From: Thecaphora thlaspeos
Taxonomy: Eukaryota > Basidiomycota > Ustilaginomycetes > Urocystidales > Glomosporiaceae
Direction: 5' to 3'
DNA: 64,000 nucleotides
NCBI GenBank assembly: GCA_900291925.1
Contig: UWYS01000008.1
Location: forward strand, 620,001-684,000
Shown: positions 22,350-24,181 of the stretch, one piece after another
Layout: every line of letters starts with the position of its first letter
Position numbering within the stretch: the first letter of the stretch is position 1
Notes under the pieces: generated by a model
The model's database searches: none
Told to the model about the DNA's origin: nothing
The model's input: the letters and a program-made list of their open reading frames with translations, nothing else
Position numbers and translations under genes: made by a program

Positions 22350-24181
22350 ATGTCCATGCCGCGCGTCTTTCTCGCCCGCCACGGCGAGACAGAGTGGTCC
22401 GTCTCAGGCCAGCACACGGGCCGCTCCGACATCCCCCTCACGCCAAACGGCGAGGCTGTCATGAAGGCGCTCGCTCCCGGCATCGTCGGCGTCGCCAACG
22501 GCAAGCTCATCGACCCCACCCGCCTCAACCACATCTACGTCAGCCCACGCTACCGCAGCCAGCGCACACTCGAAATTATGCTCCAGCACCTCCCCGCCGA
22601 GGCACGCACCGACATCCCACAGGTAGAGGTCCTCCAGGACTGCCGCGAGTGGGAGTATGGCGCCTACGAGGGGAAAAAGACCGACGAGATCCGCGCCATC
22701 CAGCCCGGCTGGGACATCTGGCGAGATGGGACACCCGACCATCCCGAGAAGCCCGACATCTTCCCCGGCGAGTCGGCGCAGCACATGTCGGACCGCGTCG
22801 ACGGCGTCATTGCGCGCATCCGACAGCTCCAGTCCGGACACGTCGACAGGCGCAACGACGGTCACGACGTCGACAAGAAGAACTGCGACGTCCTTCTCGT
22901 ATGCCACGGACACTTTAACCGCGTCTTCATCGCGCGCTGGCTCGGCCTCCCGCTGACGCAGGGGAGGCTCTTTGAGATGGACGCAGGAGGAATGGTTGTC
23001 CTCGGCTACGCCCACCACTCGTTCAAGGAACCCACAATCGCAGGCATCTTTTCCTCCAAGACGGGACCCAAACCTGACGAGAGCCCCGTCACCGCCACCA
23101 TCGACTCGCATCACGAGGAGTCGCAGTACCTATCGCTCGTCTCGCGTGTCATCTCGACCGGCGAATCGCGTCCCGACCGAACGGGAACGGGGACCATCGC
23201 CCTCTTCGCACCGCAACCCTCGCTCCGCTTCAGCCTTGAAAATAACAAACTTCCGCTCCTCACCACCAAGCGCGTCTTTCTGCGCGGCGTGCTCGAGGAG
23301 CTCCTCTGGTTTGTCGCCGGCTGCACCGACGGCAAGGTGCTGATCGAGCGCGGCGTGCACATCTGGGACGGGAACGGATCGCGCGAATTCCTCGATGGCC
23401 GAGGACTGACGGAACGACGAGAGGGCGACCTGGGGCCCGTGTACGGCTTCCAGTGGAGGCACTTTGGCGCGCAGTACAAGGACTGCGATGTAGACTACAC
23501 GGGGCAGGGCGTGGACCAATTGAGGGAGGTCATCGACAAGATCAAGAACAACCCGACCGATCGACGGATCATTATGTCGGCCTGGAACCCTGCCGGTGCG
23601 TGCCATTCCCATTTGCGACGCCCTCTTGCCACTCATCGCTGACCTTCCCATTTTCCTTTGTTCTCCCTCCGACACGACAGACCTAAAGAAGATGGCCCTC
23701 CCACCCTGCCATATGTTTGTCCAGTTCTTCGTCTCCAACGTCTCTCGACCGGGTCGCAAGCAACTAAGCGCACAGATGTACCAACGTTCATGCGACCTTG
23801 GGTTGGGGGTTCCGTTCAACATCGCCTCTTACGCCCTGCTAGTCCACATGATTGCAAAGGTGACCGACTGTGATGCAAAGGAGCTCGTCATCTGCATGGG
23901 CGATGCGCACGTCTACAAGGACCACGTCGAGCCCTTGAAAGGTACGTTGCGCCGTCCCTTTTTCATCGCCTCGTATAGTGTTTCGGGGAGTCACTGACGA
24001 ATCCTTTACCCTGACTGACGGTGTGGGACATCGAACAGTACAACTGGAAAGAGACCCGCTACCCTTCCCTACGCTCCAATTCAAGAGGGACGTCAAGGAC
24101 ATAGACGACTTCAAGTACGAAGACTTTGACGTCCAGGATTATAAGTGTCACGGCAAGATTGACATGAAGATGAGCGTCTAG
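22350..24181 (+). CDS. Fusion protein: SHB17-like sedoheptulose bisphosphatase + thymidylate synthase
   Basis: Exons 22350-23595, 23681-23941, 24039-24181; 549 residues. Residues ~4-240 are a histidine-phosphatase domain closest to yeast Shb17 (sedoheptulose-1,7-bisphosphatase of riboneogenesis): catalytic RHG at 10-12, second His186 in CHGH, and the shared blocks '[10 protein letters not shown]', 'WDIWRDG' and '[14 protein letters not shown]'. Residues ~255-549 are a full thymidylate synthase: 'DRTGTGT', '[21 protein letters not shown]', catalytic Cys425 in ALPPCH, and the terminal 'HGKIDMKM'. Thymidylate synthase makes dTMP from dUMP and methylene-tetrahydrofolate. Both domains sit in exon 1 without stop, frameshift or intron at the junction, and no methionine lies between MVVLGYAHH and the TS core. 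Each domain looks catalytically intact. I know of no described fusion of this kind. Confidence 0.93.

Follow-up and report, generated by a model that had tools for sequence, protein, structure and literature searches.

A predicted Shb17-type bisphosphatase and thymidylate synthase share one reading frame in the smut fungus Thecaphora thlaspeos

We describe a gene of the smut fungus Thecaphora thlaspeos that appears to encode a sedoheptulose bisphosphatase (SBPase) of the Shb17 type joined to thymidylate synthase (TS) in a single polypeptide. The gene lies on a 963 kb contig, within a 64,000-nucleotide (nt) stretch (assembly GCA_900291925.1, contig UWYS01000008.1, positions 620,001 to 684,000 of the forward strand), referred to here as the window and numbered from its first letter; features are collected in Table 1. 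Spliced translation of join(22350..23595, 23681..23941, 24039..24181) on the + strand delivers 549 amino acids (aa) in one frame without an internal stop, interrupted by two GT-AG introns that both contain a CTGAC branch-like sequence. The start ATG at 22350 stands in the context CCCACCATGT, and the stop TAG ends at 24181. The frame of this ATG remains open for a further 94 codons upstream (22068–22349) and holds no other in-frame ATG, a region that we read as 5′ leader. No Rfam family was found at gathering score in positions 20000–27000.

Exon 1 holds the whole phosphatase domain, the linker and the beginning of TS, with no in-frame stop between them. An intron within the linker was considered and is not needed to keep the frame; weak donor and acceptor letters are present at the junction. 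GC content at third codon positions (GC3) is similar in the phosphatase part (0.85), the linker (0.83, 18 codons counted) and the TS portion of exon 1 (0.80), and lower outside coding sequence (introns 0.61 and 0.41, upstream 0.62, downstream 0.56), so that the linker looks coding, although only 18 codons speak to this. The last in-frame methionine codons ahead of the TS core are Met210 (22977) and Met215 (22992), both in the final part of the phosphatase domain, and the next one, Met409 (23574), is already within TS; between 22992 and 23395 the + strand contains no ATG in any frame. These results agree with an earlier note, made from the letters alone, which had proposed a one-frame fusion with its junction inside exon 1, uninterrupted by a stop and requiring no splicing. 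The linker that it described is present as well, with a length nearer 19 residues (about 235–253) than the approximately 15 first given.

One codon of the linker bears on how such a gene could have arisen. Ile251 is encoded by ATC, one base from ATG, and is directly preceded by GCCACC. Among the long coding-like frames of the window, GCC ACC precedes just 12 of 9143 codons and 2 of 324 Ile codons (Ile251 possibly among these). Speculatively, this ATC may be a decayed TS start codon. The fusion itself probably originated from two adjacent genes that were joined when the stop of the first, the DNA between them and the start of the second were lost.

The N-terminal domain carries the features of a complete histidine phosphatase. 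The Pfam model PF00300 (His_Phos_1) matches aa 6–225 at 126 bits, against a cut-off of 21.7, and the phosphatase motifs are found at RHG 10–12, REWEYG 99–104 (the acid motif), HGH 186–188 (with His186) and YAHH 220–223; none of the NCBIfam phosphatase models passes its cut-off on the fusion. By sequence, the nearest solved structures are chains of Saccharomyces cerevisiae YKR043C/Shb17 (135 bits at best), followed by Mycobacterium tuberculosis Gpm2 (89 bits), where the fungal side of the comparison consists of the few fungal chains in the PDB. We further ranked 83 candidates, comprising 80 bacterial relatives, yeast Shb17, Gpm2 and the phosphoglycerate-mutase fragment of the T. thlaspeos genome itself. 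With the fusion N-domain as query, yeast Shb17 ranked best of the 83 (144.3 bits, with the top bacterial sequence at 135.5). Yeast Shb17 as query in turn had the fusion as its best non-self match among 84 (144.7 bits, compared to 114.8 for the next). The bacterial relatives are the best 80 of 545 confirmed in a genome-contig scan with a 3-row alignment, drawn from a prokaryotic collection that is silent on fungi; the same scan with the N-domain sequence alone matched 55 stretches, none of which was a confirmed relative.

Phylogeny and predicted fold point in the same direction. In a tree of 31 rows, which included 27 of the 80 bacterial relatives and yeast Shb17 as the sole other fungal Shb17, the fusion and yeast Shb17 paired at 99/94, with the yeast branch long (1.08) and its placement accordingly unsure. 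Gpm2, a stand-alone and less similar protein (88.8 bits) described as a fructose bisphosphatase (FBPase) in PMC4535450, groups with actinobacteria instead. Across the fusion and 40 of the 80 bacterial relatives, 23 alignment columns are invariant, including R10, H11, G12, R69 and E100; the position of His186 is occupied by His in 33 of the 40 and by Ser in the other 7, and the fusion keeps His. A structure predicted for aa 1–252 from an alignment with the same number of bacterial rows (40 of 80) has a mean predicted local distance difference test (pLDDT) score of 87.9, with lower values in loops at about 41–60 and 161–180 and a last strand at 228–234; the score is 79 over aa 231–240 and then falls to 49 and 38 over aa 241–252, at the linker end. 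Rows 1–5 of a Foldseek search with this model are all YKR043C, including the sedoheptulose-1,7-bisphosphate complex 3oi7. VIA-align Z values are 27.8 for Gpm2 and 27.3 for Shb17, a tie, so the fold alone does not settle the choice between these two. Taken with the sequence and tree results, which the fold matches, we assign the N-domain to the Shb17 type, from which its substrate preference is inferred. Its yeast orthologue differs in being stand-alone and in having, by alignment, about 32 more residues ahead of the last strand.

The C-terminal domain is a complete TS, the enzyme that makes thymidine monophosphate (dTMP). PF00303 (Thymidylat_synt) matches aa 259–549 at 359 bits over positions 2–266 of its 266, and TIGR03284 reaches 293 bits (cut-off 108), with seven other matched TS models below their cut-offs. 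The motifs with established roles in TS, including the Arg loop, the PPCH cysteine, QRSCD and GDAHVY, are intact: RPDRTGTGT at 274–282, PPCHM with Cys425, QRSCD, GDAHVY and the KMSV end. The best solved match is PDB 2aaz (71% identity over 300 columns), a stand-alone fungal TS that we take to be from Cryptococcus neoformans; its chain of 317 residues contains nothing but TS and extends 17 residues ahead of the core that both proteins share. The identities given in the earlier note thus hold for both halves, namely a histidine phosphatase with RHG at 10–12 and His186, closest to Shb17 (by reciprocal best match, the 99/94 clade and the fold match), and a complete TS with catalytic Cys425.

To place the gene in its genome, we applied six-frame searches to the assembly (20.59 Mb in 32 contigs). 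PF00303 matches nowhere but in the three exons of the fusion gene, and ThyX, considered as a backup for TS, gave no match and was rejected. PF00300 has nine matches including the fusion, which is slightly outscored on this general model by one of the others (L004). A protein search with the fusion N-domain recovered itself and one match at E 0.088, and a second Shb17 among the eight other PF00300 loci (L004, L006–L012) was rejected, as these reach at most 37.7 bits compared to 501 for the fusion N-domain itself. Read by eye, these other loci presumably comprise two separate 6-phosphofructo-2-kinase/fructose-2,6-bisphosphatase (PFK-2/FBPase-2) genes (L004 and L009), one phosphoglycerate mutase and four others. 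Fructose-bisphosphate aldolase and transketolase, needed around the SBPase step, are both matched in the assembly, and a classical FBPase is present separately (PF00316 match). As neither a further TS nor a further close relative of Shb17 came to light, which answers the earlier note's question of a second free copy, TS and a Shb17-type enzyme both appear to come from the fusion locus alone, as far as this assembly and search can tell.

Ultimately, these sequence-based results make it very probable that the locus encodes one bifunctional SBPase-TS enzyme, in which an N-terminal Shb17 orthologue, a flexible linker of about 19 residues and a C-terminal TS would have independent active sites. Shb17 acts on the sedoheptulose-1,7-bisphosphate that aldolase produces; through this hydrolysis, carbon reaches the pentose phosphate pathway while bypassing the oxidative branch (PMC8151747). 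The Shb17 part is probably a sedoheptulose-1,7-bisphosphatase with fructose-1,6-bisphosphate as an additional substrate. Judging from what the family does, TS would form its usual dimer and carry two phosphatase domains on flexible linkers, each active site running its own reaction independently. Any benefit would lie in making the enzymes of ribose supply and dTMP synthesis together and in a fixed ratio, rather than in channelling.

Fusions with TS at the C-terminus are known, and comparison with them frames what this one may mean. The classic case is the bifunctional dihydrofolate reductase (DHFR)-TS of protists and plants, in which DHFR recycles the dihydrofolate made by TS. The present gene resembles it in layout, with an N-terminal partner and a C-terminal TS whose matches to DHFR-TS chains reach 396 bits. 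Membership of that family is rejected, since the N-domain here is PF00300 and DHFR matches are separate, on contig C11. The DHFR-TS analogy drawn in the earlier note is also weak on function: DHFR and TS have dihydrofolate in common, whereas SBPase and TS share no metabolite, and DHFR-TS-type channelling is therefore not expected.

A closer precedent is Schizosaccharomyces pombe Hal3, in which a PPCDC core is followed by a functional C-terminal TS (Molero 2013, as described in PMC6695811). It is likewise a fungal protein, encoded by one gene, with an unrelated metabolic enzyme ahead of the TS, although the partner there is a flavoprotein of the coenzyme A (CoA) pathway and not a histidine phosphatase. 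The T. thlaspeos gene does not belong to the Hal3-TS group, as the genome's only PPCDC (PF02441) match lies on another contig (C9:546701-547534, - strand), within a 1636-aa frame that also carries a VPS9 domain. According to PMC6695811, VPS9-PPCDC proteins are confined to Ustilaginales among fungi and are absent even from Malasseziales. Finding one here supports the smut affiliation guessed in the earlier note, and by this lineage marker the genome resembles those of Ustilaginales. Ustilago maydis UmHal3 (VPS9-PPCDC) offers the likeness of another lineage-specific smut fusion, one found in this genome too, but it involves neither TS nor SHB17.

Searches beyond these cases returned no second example. 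Full-text searches of openly licensed papers gave, among the matches listed, no report of an SBPase-TS or histidine-phosphatase-TS fusion, in keeping with the earlier note, which knew of none, and no SBPase-TS pairing appears in the available portions of papers on Phytophthora multifunctional proteins (PMC2705460) and folate-pathway fusions (PMC4224340). TS was found beside none of the best 80 of the 545 N-domain relatives (E ≤ 0.001, up to 2.5 kb a side, less at contig ends). Furthermore, a scan of viral contigs with the whole fusion returned 19 loci, all of them TS-only matches, with a Shb17-like stretch in 0 of 19 at E ≤ 0.01.

The earlier note went further and proposed that the fusion couples sugar supply to DNA precursor synthesis. 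In this form, selection would have favoured the fusion because it keeps the supply of ribose-5-phosphate in step with the need for dTMP, within one compartment or one window of the cell cycle, which we regard as unlikely. Both activities do serve nucleotide synthesis in a broad sense, with Shb17 feeding the pentose phosphate pathway independently of the oxidative branch (PMC8151747), and separate regulation at the level of genes is impossible if no other TS or close Shb17 relative exists, as found here. Yet the two reactions share no intermediate, and many steps separate sedoheptulose-7-phosphate from deoxyuridine monophosphate (dUMP), so the claim is not supported as stated. The 1.25 kb upstream of the gene lack the ACGCGT box, a yeast S-phase element, which is a weak point against coupling given that only about 0.2 such boxes would be expected there by chance. 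In S. pombe, moreover, TS is joined to a CoA enzyme, so TS partners need not share its pathway, and fusion to TS alone does not imply pathway coupling (PMC6695811). This precedent of the same layout lowers the surprise of the present gene and weakens any inference from fusion to coupling. The strongest version, that a smut lineage hard-wired its only SBPase to its only TS, we hold to be unlikely; oxidation-independent ribose-5-phosphate and dTMP would then rise and fall together, the fusion would be conserved and selected, and splitting it would disturb deoxynucleoside triphosphate (dNTP) pools.

The locus could instead yield two products, the full-length fusion together with a TS-only isoform that is either translated from an internal transcript, with Met210 or Met215 as its start, or released by proteolysis of the linker. 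Both methionine codons have a purine at −3 and a G at +4 and lie about 40 residues ahead of TS, and the linker is of low model confidence, but nothing in the sequence requires an internal promoter or a cleavage, and we judge this arrangement decidedly unlikely. It nonetheless qualifies the earlier statement that TS cannot easily be made alone from this locus, which stands in that no ATG lies near the TS core and gives way in that either upstream methionine could start TS on an internal transcript.

It is very improbable that TS alone works and that the phosphatase domain has degenerated or become a regulatory appendage. Loss of the activity might be tolerable, considering that deleting shb17 in S. 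cerevisiae causes metabolite build-up but no distinct change in growth (PMC8151747). However, RHG, the REWEYG acid motif and the second His (the residue that is Ser in 7 of 40 bacterial relatives) are intact, the predicted structure is mostly confident, and the genome search turned up no other close relative of Shb17. Finally, we regard as extremely improbable an artefact in which assembly or base-call error ran neighbouring genes together, for although the evidence is a single assembly without reads and the ATC at 23100 in its GCCACC context is one base short of ATG, an error would have to delete both the SHB17 stop and the TS start yet preserve the frame, an ATG at 23100 would still leave SHB17 reading into TS, coding-like GC3 is continuous across two in-frame halves, and no separate copies were found elsewhere in an assembly that places the gene on so long a contig.

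The single SBPase-TS enzyme that we favour is encoded between two recognizable neighbours (Table 1). Elsewhere in the window, a Pfam scan covering 10 of the 14 long frames found a secretory lipase (2869–4659, +), a squalene epoxidase (14637–16847, +) and a PEX6-like peroxin (37890–41764, +), the latter with AAA domains in two overlapping frames and probably intron-split. Two long, coding-like stop-to-stop frames, at 11956–14406 (+, 817 aa) and 31249–33594 (-, 782 aa), had no Pfam match at E ≤ 0.001.

Table 1 Coordinates of the fusion gene, its parts and its neighbours within the window
Feature	Position	Strand	Basis or remark
SEC24-like stop-to-stop frame with Sec23/Sec24 domains	17369..21976	-	Pfam; upstream, divergent
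Exon 1: whole Shb17-type domain, linker and first 55% of TS	22350..23595	+	open frame and spliced translation
Shb17-type histidine phosphatase domain (aa 6–225; last predicted strand to aa 234)	22365..23024	+	PF00300; nearest structure YKR043C/Shb17; fold matches
Linker (aa 235–253), without ATG or stop	23052..23108	+	ATG/GC3 scan; low pLDDT at its end
Ile251 codon ATC after GCCACC, speculative remnant of a former TS start	23100..23102	+	
TS domain, exon 1 part (from aa 259; RPDRTGTGT 274–282)	23124..23595	+	PF00303 and motif position
Intron 1 (85 nt)	23596..23680	+	GT..AG; CTGAC branch-like site
Exon 2: catalytic Cys425 (PPCHM), QRSCD and GDAHVY of TS	23681..23941	+	
Intron 2 (97 nt)	23942..24038	+	GT..AG
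Exon 3: TS C-terminus, end KMSV, stop TAG	24039..24181	+	
3′ exon of RACK1 homologue	24557..24973	-	PDB sequence match; downstream, convergent

SBPase-TS represents a new N-terminal partner for TS within an already known kind of TS fusion. A third TS partner, drawn from sugar metabolism, would show TS to be unusually permissive as a C-terminal fusion partner, and the gene would provide a naturally occurring case in which to ask whether fusion of this sort reflects functional coupling. As the genome search detected neither a second TS nor another close relative of Shb17, the locus would tie a sugar enzyme that is normally dispensable inseparably to an essential enzyme of DNA-precursor synthesis, and the fusion imposes a fixed ratio and common expression on both. 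If common to relatives of T. thlaspeos, it would furthermore serve as a clean clade marker.
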